Shown in pieces: positions 22,606-25,307 of a stretch of 64,000 nt of DNA. The position numbers were made by a program, and so were the translations under genes. The stretch spans positions 1-64,000 of the forward strand of contig JAFVRD010000013.1 in NCBI GenBank assembly GCA_017504435.1. Reading direction: 5' to 3'. The notes under the pieces were generated by a model. That model was given only the letters and a program-made list of their open reading frames with translations. It had not been told where the DNA came from and made no database searches. The DNA comes from Lentisphaeria bacterium. GTDB lineage: Bacteria > Verrucomicrobiota > Lentisphaeria > Victivallales > Victivallaceae. Within the stretch, counting starts at the first letter, position 1. Every line of letters begins with the position of its first letter.

Positions 22606-24261
22606 TCAATTCCTTTGGGTTATAAGGTCACTGACACTGCCGCCGGGAGGGATCATCGGCAGTACAAATTCATCCATATCCAGTTGGCAATCAAGTACCA
22701 GCGGAGTATCAGCAGGCGGATTAAATAAAGCGCGCTCCAATTCAACCAGTCTGGTGATTTTTTTACCCTTTGCGCCGAATGCCCTTGCCAGAGCGGCGAA
22801 ATCGGTTTTCCGGTTCAACGTAGTGTGCGAATAGTGTTTGTCATAAAACATCGTCTGCCACTGCCGTACCATACCCAATACTCCGTTGTTGAAAATCACG
22901 ATCGTAAGCGGCAAATTTTGCGATACCGCTGTGGCAAGTTCCTGCAGACACATTCCGAAACTGCCGTCACCGGTGAAAAGTACCGTCGGTTTGCGGTCAT
23001 TGGCGATACATCCGCCGATCGCCGCGCCCAGACCGAACCCCATCGTACCCAATCCGCCGGAAGTCAACAGCGTGCGGGGCGTTTGAAAAGGAAAATATTG
23101 CATCGTCCACATCTGATGCTGTCCCACATCAGTAGCGATCACCGTATCCGGAGTACAGTATGAAGCGACTGTTTTCAGCAAATTAACAGGATTAAGCTGA
23201 TCGCTAACCGGATGAAAATCCAGCTTTTTCGCTTTGGCACACGCTTTTTCCCATTCCGGATGGGCAATCCGGGGCAATTTCTGCAGAAGTTGTTGTAACA
23301 CCGCTTTTACCTCCCCGCACAACTCCACATCAGCGGCGGTATTTTTGTTGATTTCGGCATGGTCGATATCGACATGGATGATCTTTTTGCCCTCTTTATA
23401 TTTTGCCGTATTACCGGTGGCGCGGTCAGAAAAACGGACCCCCAGAGCGATTATAAGATCACACTCTGTGAACATTTTAGCGGAACTTGCGGTGCCGTGC
23501 ATACCGCACATCCCCAGATTCAGCGGTTCATTTGCCGGCAGCGCAGTCAGCCCCATCATACTGAAGGTCACCGGAGCAGAAATACGCTTTGCCAGAGCCA
23601 GAAGCTCGTCACTTGCCCCGGAAGAAACCACTCCGCCGCCGGAGTAGATCAACGGGCGTTCAGCAGATTCAATCAGACGGAGCGTTTCACTTAAATCCAC
23701 TTCCGGCAGGGAGTTGAAAAACAGTTCCTGCGAAGTGTATTCGCTTTCATCACACATATCGGTCTGGATGCTTTTAGGAATATCCACCAACACCGGACCG
23801 GGACGGCCGGATGAGGCGATTTGGAATGCGGCATCCAGTATGCCATTTAAATCTTTTATATCGCTGACGGCGAAATTGTGCTTGACAATTTCCTGGGTTA
23901 TTCCGGTGATGTCCACCTCCTGAAAACTGTCCCGTCCCAACAGCGGCACAGCCACATTGCCAGTGATGGCAACCAGAGGTACGCTATCCAGATAAGCGTT
24001 GGCGATACCGGTGACCAGATTGGTCGCTCCGGGACCGCTGGTAGCGATGACCACGCCCGGCTTGCCGCTCACCCGGGCAAAACCGTCGGCGGCGTGAGCG
24101 GCATTCTGCTCATGGGCGCACAAGACATGGTTAATGCGGTGGGCGTTTTTATAAAGTTCATCATAGATGGGCAGAACTGCGCCGCCGGGATAACCGAAAA
24201 CGGTGTCCGCACCATTGCGGCACAATGCGTCGATAACTATTGCTGCTCCTGATTTTTTCAT
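22606..24261 (-). CDS. ilvB: Acetolactate synthase large (catalytic) subunit
   Basis: A 551-residue thiamine-diphosphate enzyme condensing pyruvate with pyruvate or 2-oxobutanoate. The catalytic Glu is in HEQNAAHAADGFAR. The ThDP motif GDGSFGM, followed about 25 residues later by FNNGVLGMVRQWQ, and the SGPGATNLVTG loop are present. It is the first structural gene of ilvBNCDA. The start at 24261 has no strong Shine-Dalgarno and lies about 30 bases after the second attenuator's terminator, so expression depends on read-through of the upstream hairpins. Confidence 0.96.
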   Translation of the reverse strand: MKKSGAAIVIDALCRNGADTVFGYPGGAVLPIYDELYKNAHRINHVLCAHEQNAAHAADGFARVSGKPGVVIATSGPGATNLVTGIANAYLDSVPLVAITGNVAVPLLGRDSFQEVDITGITQEIVKHNFAVSDIKDLNGILDAAFQIASSGRPGPVLVDIPKSIQTDMCDESEYTSQELFFNSLPEVDLSETLRLIESAERPLIYSGGGVVSSGASDELLALAKRISAPVTFSMMGLTALPANEPLNLGMCGMHGTASSAKMFTECDLIIALGVRFSDRATGNTAKYKEGKKIIHVDIDHAEINKNTAADVELCGEVKAVLQQLLQKLPRIAHPEWEKACAKAKKLDFHPVSDQLNPVNLLKTVASYCTPDTVIATDVGQHQMWTMQYFPFQTPRTLLTSGGLGTMGFGLGAAIGGCIANDRKPTVLFTGDGSFGMCLQELATAVSQNLPLTIVIFNNGVLGMVRQWQTMFYDKHYSHTTLNRKTDFAALARAFGAKGKKITRLVELERALFNPPADTPLVLDCQLDMDEFVLPMIPPGGSVSDLITQRN

Positions 24262-24290: not shown

Positions 24291-24334
24291 AAAATTAAAA
24301 AGCCCTGCCGGAAATCTTCGCTTCCGGCAGGGCT
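24291..24334 (-). terminator. ilv attenuator 2 intrinsic terminator
   Basis: On the minus strand AGCCCTGCCGGAA pairs perfectly over 13 bp with TTCCGGCAGGGCT around an 8-base loop, followed by TTTTAATTTT. It starts 20 bases after the stop of leader peptide 2 and ends about 30 bases before the ilvB start. The ascending-arm segment CCCTGCCGG (24324-24332) can instead pair with CCGGCACGG (24359-24367) at the end of leader 2, eight of nine positions matching, forming an antiterminator. Confidence 0.85.
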
Positions 24335-24353
24335 GAAACTGACTTGCTTGATT

Positions 24354-24497
24354 CTATACCGTGCCGGGGGGCATAATAATAATTACGCTGATAATAATGG
24401 TAATAATAATGACGGCGGCAACGGATACGACAACAGAACCGGACACAGAAAGTGCCGGGACAAAATTGATGTTGCTGTTAAAAAGTGTCGTATTCAT
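24354..24497 (-). CDS. ilv leader peptide 2 (47 aa, Ile/Val-rich)
   Basis: The small frame starts ATG-AAT-ACG at 24497 and ends TAG at 24354. It encodes 10 Ile and 9 Val in 47 residues, with the cluster VIIITIIISVIIIMPPGTV at the end, reminiscent of the enterobacterial IlvL pattern VVVIIIPPCG. Codons are mainly ATT. A ribosome stalled on the Ile run would leave the last codons (CCGGCACGG) free to pair with the terminator arm; a ribosome at the stop would cover them. There is no strong Shine-Dalgarno. A short TTG frame after the GGAGA of terminator 1 ends ATGA exactly at this start, so coupling is possible. Translation is inferred from composition and layout. Confidence 0.8.
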   Translation of the reverse strand: MNTTLFNSNINFVPALSVSGSVVVSVAAVIIITIIISVIIIMPPGTV

Positions 24498-24512
24498 TTT
24501 CGTTTTCGTTTC

Positions 24513-24551
24513 AAAAAAAAATCTCCCTGCGGCTGATCACCGAAGAGAGAT
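24513..24551 (-). terminator. ilv attenuator 1 intrinsic terminator
   Basis: On the minus strand ATCTCTC pairs with GGGAGAT (one G-U), with an inner CGG/CCG stem around TGATCAG, followed by nine T. It starts about 24 bases after the stop of leader peptide 1. The segment ATCAGCCG (24530-24537) is perfectly complementary over 8 bp to CGGCTGAT (24587-24594) in the last codons of leader 1, giving a competing antiterminator. Confidence 0.8.
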
Positions 24552-24581
24552 ATTATAAATCATTCAAGTTTATCTCAACAA
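24552..24581 (-). promoter_or_regulatory. Possible internal promoter between the two ilv attenuators
   Basis: A perfect TATAAT (24552-24557) lies 18 bases from TTGTTG (24576-24581), which overlaps the leader 1 stop codon. Transcripts from here would start inside terminator 1 and meet only attenuator 2. The -35 box matches four of six consensus positions, so this is a candidate only. Confidence 0.35.
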
Positions 24582-24664
24582 CAGCAATCAGCCGTACCGA
24601 CGCCGATAATTACGACGACGGCAATAATAATAACGCTGATAATGTTGTTGAAAAATTTGTTCAT
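24575..24664 (-). CDS. ilv leader peptide 1 (29 aa, Ile/Val-rich)
   Basis: The frame starts at ATG 24664 with GGGGA 5 bases upstream and ends TGA at 24575. It encodes 7 Ile and 5 Val but no Leu in 29 residues: NNIISVIIIAVVVIIGVGTA then D and three Cys. The last codons contain CGGCTGAT, which can pair with the loop and descending arm of the following terminator. The layout is that of a ribosome-mediated attenuator sensing charged tRNA-Ile and tRNA-Val. It shares an ATTATCAGCGT-ATTATTATT core with leader 2, which suggests a tandem duplication. The start lies about 25 bases downstream of the predicted transcription start. Confidence 0.82.
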   Translation of the reverse strand: MNKFFNNIISVIIIAVVVIIGVGTADCCC

Positions 24665-24695
24665 TTTTTCCCCGTTTCATTTCAAAACACCTTTT

Positions 24696-24723
24696 AATAT
24701 ACCATTGTTTTTTTTACTGTCAA
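24696..24723 (-). promoter_or_regulatory. Main promoter of the ilv leader/ilvBNCDA operon
   Basis: On the minus strand a perfect TTGACA (24718-24723) is separated by 16 bases from TATATT (24696-24701), with a TG one base before the -10 box. The predicted start near 24689 leaves a short 5' UTR of about 25 bases before leader peptide 1. Confidence 0.8.
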
Positions 24724-24761: not shown

Positions 24762-24790
24762 TTGACTTGCAAAAAAAACGGTGCTACATT
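24762..24790 (+). promoter_or_regulatory. Promoter of the orphan plus-strand leader
   Basis: TTGACT (24762-24767), a 17-base spacer and TACATT (24785-24790). It is divergent from the ilv promoter, about 40 bases away across an A/G-rich stretch. The predicted start near 24797 lies about 30 bases before the small frame. Confidence 0.7.
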
Positions 24791-24827: not shown

Positions 24828-24908
24828 ATGAAAAACATTATTATCAACCTTATTACGCTTGACATTCTTCTGCTTATTCAGGAGAGTGCTGTTCCGTCGT
24901 GCGGTTGA
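24828..24908 (+). CDS. Orphan leader peptide (26 aa, Ile/Leu-rich)
   Basis: The frame is ATG at 24828 to TGA at 24908, with GCGGAA about 9 bases upstream. It encodes 6 Ile and 5 Leu in 26 residues (MKNIIINLITLDILLLI, then polar residues ending SCG). GTGCTGTTCCG (24886-24896), in the codons just before the stop, can pair over 11 positions (three G-U) with CGGAGCAGTGC (24932-24942) in the ascending arm and loop of the following terminator. That is the same design as in the two ilv attenuators. No sense gene follows: the next genes are convergent (rpsS end). It may be an attenuator left behind by a rearrangement, a regulatory small RNA, or a small membrane peptide. Confidence 0.65.
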   Translation: MKNIIINLITLDILLLIQESAVPSCG

Positions 24909-24927: not shown

Positions 24928-24962
24928 ATCCCGGAGCAGTGCATGTTCCGGGATTTTTTTAT
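24928..24962 (+). terminator. Terminator of the orphan leader
   Basis: ATCCCGGA pairs with TCCGGGAT around an 11-base loop, followed by seven T. It starts 20 bases after the leader stop codon. An alternative pairing of its left arm with the leader coding sequence would prevent its formation. Confidence 0.8.
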
Positions 24963-25040: not shown

Positions 25041-25307
25041 TTATTTACCGGAAACAACACCGTGGACTTTGAATACACGGGTAGGCACAAATTCGCCGAG
25101 CTTATGGCCGACCATGTTCTCAGTAACGAAAACCGGAACAAAGGTTTTGCCATTATGCACATTGAACGTATGTCCGACAAAATCCGGAATAATCAGAGAA
25201 CGCCGGGACCAGGTTTTGATCGGGGTCTTGTTGGCAGCGTTCATCTTTTCGACTTTGTCGATAAGATACTGATCCACAAAAGGACCTTTTTTGATGGATC
25301 TGGGCAT
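25041..25307 (-). CDS. rpsS: Ribosomal protein uS19
   Basis: An 88-residue S19, a head-domain protein of the small subunit: [15 protein letters not shown] at the start, [20 protein letters not shown], and [11 protein letters not shown]. Its ATG overlaps the rplB stop by one base (TAATG). Unusually, this is the last gene: the normal next members of the S10 cluster (rplV, rpsC, rplP and so on) are absent and a terminator follows. Confidence 0.98.

Follow-up and report, generated by a model that had tools for sequence, protein, structure and literature searches.

Two Ile/Val leader-peptide units in series, a probable two-stage attenuator, ahead of the ilvBNCDA operon of a Lentisphaeria bacterium

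The leader of the ilvBNCDA operon in the window (the whole stretch of Lentisphaeria DNA that was analysed, 64 kb long) carries two Ile/Val leader-peptide units in series, and its sequence makes it very probable that the leader works as a two-stage ribosome-mediated transcription attenuator. Between rpsS (25041-25307) and ilvB (22606-24261), the order on the minus strand is promoter, ORF 1, terminator 1, ORF 2, and terminator 2, with unit 1 occupying 24664-24513 and unit 2 occupying 24497-24291. The promoter is of the sigma-70 type (TTGACA-16-TATATT, 24723-24696) and agrees with the consensus at 11 of 12 bases. ORF 1 (MNKFFNNIISVIIIAVVVIIGVGTADCCC, 24664-24575) has 29 codons, of which 7 are Ile and 5 Val, and is followed by an intrinsic terminator made up of segments 3 and 4 and a T-run (24551-24513; hairpin 24551-24521, T-run to 24513). 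ORF 2 (MNTTLFNSNINFVPALSVSGSVVVSVAAVIIITIIISVIIIMPPGTV, 24497-24354) has 47 codons, of which 10 are Ile and 9 Val, and is followed by an intrinsic terminator with a 14-bp stem (24334-24291; hairpin 24334-24301, T-rich tail to 24291). The ribosome-binding sites look weak, that of unit 2 above all. A sequence-only reading of this DNA had described two complete leader-peptide units with a promoter just upstream of the first, and all of its coordinates proved right. Both strands of the window were also scanned for ORFs of 14-60 aa with at least 6 Ile/Leu/Val in 7 consecutive residues, followed by a hairpin (< -12 kcal/mol) and a T-run, and exactly two candidates were returned, namely ilv units 1 and 2. 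Downstream on the same strand, ilvB, encoding the acetolactate synthase large subunit (TIGR00118, 658.6 bits against a cut-off of 538), is the first gene of the operon, followed in order by a short ilvN (82 aa), ilvC, ilvD, and ilvA (22602-18534).

IlvB relatives turned up at the levels of genus, family, order, and class and also in a named genome collection, by which the genomes of the close ones were identified as metagenome assemblies of Lentisphaeria, several of them from the gut of ruminants. Both units are present in 15 loci including the window (IlvB identity 65-99%), with ORF 1 having a homologue in 14 other loci and ORF 2 in 15; a further locus, L044, has unit 2 only, which indicates that unit 2 is able to stand by itself, and L059 has neither. 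In 14 of the 15 tandem loci, a promoter matching 10-11 of 12 consensus bases lies 29-33 nt before the ATG of ORF 1. From the T-run of terminator 1 to the start of ORF 2 there are 5-40 nt in 14 of the 15, and 112 nt in L042. When a second promoter was sought inside unit 1 of the 15 tandem loci, the best match reached only 8-9 of 12 bases. The promoter upstream of unit 1 and the short gap between terminator 1 and ORF 2, where the sequence leaves no room for a promoter, indicate, on sequence grounds, that a single RNA carries the two units in series. The leader is thus predicted to have what characterizes serial attenuators, namely a pair of complete units that share a transcript and are not separated by a promoter. 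It is unlikely that unit 2 controls ilv alone, with unit 1 either transcribed separately as a short RNA or being a copy in decay. L044 does carry just unit 2, and in the window terminator 1 is weaker than terminator 2 (-15.4 vs -26.8 kcal/mol), but the conserved promoter upstream of unit 1, the close spacing, and the poor promoter matches inside unit 1 all speak for a joint transcript, and 15 loci keep unit 1 intact, with a terminator that covaries.

RNA folding and comparison with relatives, two of the checks proposed in the sequence-only reading, both bore out its two serial units. The leader folds have z-scores of -3.8 and -4.3 against dinucleotide shuffles, with both leaders beating 200 of 200 shuffles, and alternative antiterminator and terminator structures are predicted in both units; among relatives, the units and their hairpins are conserved, with compensatory changes. 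To represent a stalled ribosome, RNA was folded from 14-15 nt downstream of the stalled codon up to the terminator apex. With the ribosome at the last control codons, the antiterminator of either unit folds in nearly every homologue, and with the ribosome at the stop codon it is gone.

For unit 1, segment 1 (the FNNIIS codons, 24653-24635) pairs in the minimum free energy fold with segment 2 (the ADCCC-stop codons, 24592-24573), with 87.7% of cells paired across 15 loci; segment 2 thus has segment 1 and the terminator as alternative partners. In the predicted folds, segment 2 (UGAUUGCUG, 24590-24582, and GAGAU, 24576-24572) becomes free when the ribosome stalls no later than about codon 21, and it then pairs with CGGUGAUCA (24542-24534) and AUCUC in the 5' half of the terminator; in DNA letters, the segment 3 part CGGTGATCA (24542-24534) has TGATTGCTG (24590-24582) as its partner in antiterminator 1. 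A ribosome placed at the unit 1 stop codon abolishes this predicted pairing. Terminator 1 has 97.2% of cells paired and three pairs with compensatory changes, counts which here and below are inflated by the relatedness of the compared sequences, and its covariation score was reached by 0 of 500 shuffles. The central helix of antiterminator 1 has 98.1% of cells paired, mostly by way of one-sided changes and with many G-U pairs, and in several homologues shuffling the sequence upstream gives an antiterminator energy at least as good. The predicted folds therefore give moderate support for an antiterminator 1 that is mutually exclusive with its terminator and blocked by a ribosome at the stop codon. 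Since the conserved FNNIIS and ADCCC ends of the peptide are accounted for by RNA pairing, the Cys codons need not signal Cys sensing.

For unit 2, the corresponding prediction is strong. Segment 2 (CCGGCA.GGT in DNA letters, 24367-24358, codons PGTV) forms the 5' strand of the antiterminator and pairs across loci with segment 3, the 5' part of terminator 2 (GCC-C-TGCCGG, 24333-24324), such that CCGGCA.GGU with GCC.UGCCGG constitutes antiterminator 2. This helix has 98.6% of cells paired in 16 loci, with four compensated pairs, and its covariation score was reached by 1 of 500 shuffles; the terminator has 92.8% of cells paired. Segments 2, 3, and 4 change in concert, for example with CCGGCG/CGUCGG in L038 and GGU/ACC in L032 and L036, the terminator changing to match. 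Unit 2 also has an early hairpin within its ORF (CCGGCAC-TTTCT-GTGTCCGG, 24458-24439), with 87.5% of cells paired and two compensated pairs. We also observed a perfect local hairpin, GCGUAAU-UAUU-AUUACGC, within the last unit 2 Ile codons of L033-L036, L039-L041, and L043.

A different account would have the ORFs encode functional hydrophobic micro-peptides, either a type I toxin or a membrane peptide, and stand before ilvB by chance. Both peptides are hydrophobic and conserved, and an attenuator leader peptide acting in trans, peTrpL, is known (PMC7298713). We nevertheless consider this account very improbable, as the codon runs vary in length (the unit 2 ORF has 42-60 codons across loci) while the RNA pairing segments persist, the conserved peptide ends, which are FNNIIS and AGCCC for unit 1 and PPG for unit 2, coincide with segments that pair in RNA, and every ORF is coupled to a terminator and to ilvB.

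The stall windows permissive for antitermination contain a mean of 6.6 Ile and 2.1 Val codons in unit 1 and 8.2 Ile and 5.1 Val in unit 2. The sequence-only reading had proposed that the units might sense different tRNA mixes, as only unit 2 has Leu codons; this finds no backing, since Ile and Val predominate in the stall windows, and the window's unit 2 has its two Leu codons (codons 5 and 16) outside both its control run and its permissive stall window. Judging from codon content, Ile and Val are probably what both units sense, with relatively more Val for unit 2. The Ile codons of the leaders are used in ATT:ATC ratios of 76:31 and 126:27, against 21:74 in six neighbouring genes, where ATC is preferred. 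As to where the pair came from, a shared core, ATTATCAGCGT, had been taken as a sign of duplication. The core is indeed present in both units, but its roles differ between them. The window's units share an 11-mer that codon-shuffled leaders matched in 4 of 200 trials, and the units of L035 and L037 share 20-21 nt, but several other loci share no more than shuffles do, and thus sequence similarity points only weakly to duplication.

In its sequence, each unit fits the definition of a classical leader-peptide attenuator, with a codon run, an intrinsic terminator, and an antiterminator, and we infer from this that ribosomes stall and transcription terminates at the ilv leader in vivo. A single promoter would yield an RNA on which two leader-peptide switches, independent of each other, follow in series. 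Smooth translation of the Ile and Val codons would bring the ribosome to the stop codon, where it covers segment 2 and the intrinsic terminator forms; scarcity of charged Ile- or Val-tRNA would stall it in the run, so that segment 2 pairs with the terminator's 5' portion, allowing polymerase to read through. RNA polymerase would have to clear both switches before ilvB, making readthrough approximately Q1 x Q2. With both switches passed in series, basal leakage would be multiplied down and logarithmic sensitivities would add, and we infer that control would be multiplicative and steeper, an effect known from tandem homologous riboswitches (PMC9481103). In most sequences the terminator is favoured when the full-length RNA is folded at equilibrium, and antitermination would therefore have to be kinetic.

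The two stages might also differ in what they do when untranslated. When 160-220 nt RNAs of the related sequences were folded thermodynamically with no ribosome, unit 1 kept segment 2 off the terminator in 12 of 15 loci, as in the default of classical attenuators, where a protector pairing of segments 1 and 2 favours termination, and unit 2 formed its antiterminator in 13 of 16. These folds raise the possibility, which we hold only tentatively, that the defaults are opposite and the stages non-redundant, with an untranslated unit 1 terminating and an untranslated unit 2 reading through. The early hairpin of unit 2 (24458-24439) would then perhaps occupy the protector segment and so permit the antiterminator to form with no translation. 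If so, starvation would be sensed by unit 1, unit 2 would act as a further check, terminating only if its leader is fully translated, and a polymerase that outruns the ribosomes after unit 1 would not be terminated by mistake.

By the IlvB sequences, serial units had a separate origin in a second family of the class. In the IlvB tree they fall in two separately supported clades, that of the window and, within the same class, that of genus g73 (family f21), where both units have predicted antiterminators; the sister genera of g73 have single units (L143, L146, and L147). No serial units were found before the distant Lentisphaeria IlvB paralogues. Nor do serial units appear to be a rule for amino-acid operons of the window's genome, where the hisG region has no His leader and trpE was not found. 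In three loci (L142, L145, and L152), ilvB is preceded by an Ile/Val unit with a terminator and then by a Leu/Val/Arg-rich ORF (MKSKMSVVDRVLSVLRPQPLLLVAVVARITICSVPVQF in L142) with no obvious terminator; this second ORF is perhaps a translational second stage.

The window's IlvB is 60-65% identical to Bacillota and Treponema proteins and only about 45% identical to other Lentisphaeria paralogues, and this closer relationship suggests that the ilv operon was gained by lateral transfer. Single Ile/Val leader units were observed before ilvB in Clostridia and Treponema (L047, L049, L051-L053, L055-L058, and others). Among 48 further Bacillota and Spirochaetota ilvB loci, 26 have one unit and none of the 48 has a true second one, the apparent second units of L078 and L105 being spurious overlapping ORFs. 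These single units resemble the window's in having the same operon, a related IlvB, and a leader ORF with a terminator, and differ in that there is one. T-boxes are common controllers of ilv operons in Bacillota, which supply the closest IlvB relative outside the phylum, but a T-box or riboswitch leader with incidental ORFs is scarcely credible here and the T-box identity was rejected, as Rfam models at gathering thresholds, the T-box covariance model included, matched tRNAs but nothing else in the window and had no hit in 16 related loci. The Clostridia and Treponema single-unit loci that were scanned (L058 was not among them) likewise gave no T-box at gathering score.

Serial leaders are also found before leu genes in the genus. 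All three genomes having leuA (G007, G012, and G018) have two serial Leu/Ile units before it, with terminators and predicted antiterminators (leader loci L153, L154, and L155). In G007 and G012 the divergent neighbour of ilv is leuA-leuC, so that four attenuators would radiate from one intergenic region. In the window, the plus strand carries an orphan leader that adjoins rpsS and has no gene of its own behind it, consisting of a promoter-like TTGACT-17-TACATT (24762-24790), a Leu/Ile ORF (MKNIIINLITLDILLLIQESAVPSCG, 24828-24908) homologous to leu leader unit A of L153-L155, and a predicted terminator from 24927 to 24955-24961. No leuA above the family cut-off was found in the window's genome, which is 95% complete. 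Read from its sequence, the orphan is a relic of a leu operon of which unit A only was kept. The orphan ORF is still open in other genomes with no detected leuA (L130, L135, and L127).

Escherichia coli has single ilv attenuators, ilvL before ilvGMEDA and ivbL before ilvBN. The Lentisphaeria leader is like these in its leader ORF with a string of branched-chain codons, in the mutual exclusion of antiterminator and intrinsic terminator, and in the biosynthetic operon downstream, and differs in having two complete units per transcript, an extra early hairpin in unit 2, and a host of another phylum. The tandem attenuators of Salmonella mgtCBR respond to two different signals, ATP and proline, have additive effects, and do without intrinsic terminators (PMC3641672); there too each of two short ORFs in a leader acts on elongation into the operon, whereas the ilv units would both respond to the same amino acids and come with an intrinsic terminator each. 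Tandem homologous riboswitches give a steeper, more digital response (PMC9481103) and tandem T-boxes are serial transcription switches (PMC7583486), and the ilv leader is like both in placing transcription switches in series, but its sensor would be the translating ribosome rather than direct binding of a ligand or tRNA. In the open-access literature searched, we found no description of serial same-signal amino-acid attenuators before ilv or leu, and none of attenuation in Lentisphaerota; searches for two or tandem leader peptides retrieved mgtCBR, ermBL2, and msrD and otherwise unrelated papers. The mechanism is that of known ribosome-mediated attenuation, and the serial same-signal arrangement is the part that appears new.

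Attenuation theory asks what sets sensitivity and basal leak (PMC1183508), and serial same-signal units offer a natural experiment in which the basal readthroughs of the stages are expected to multiply and their logarithmic sensitivities to add. The natural single-unit variants (L044, the sister genera, and the Bacillota), together with two IlvB clades and both ilv and leu operons, make the serial effect directly testable. The leader points to ribosome-mediated attenuation in Lentisphaerota, and with two sensing switches in a row, the ilv genes of these gut bacteria should respond more sharply to amino-acid shortage.
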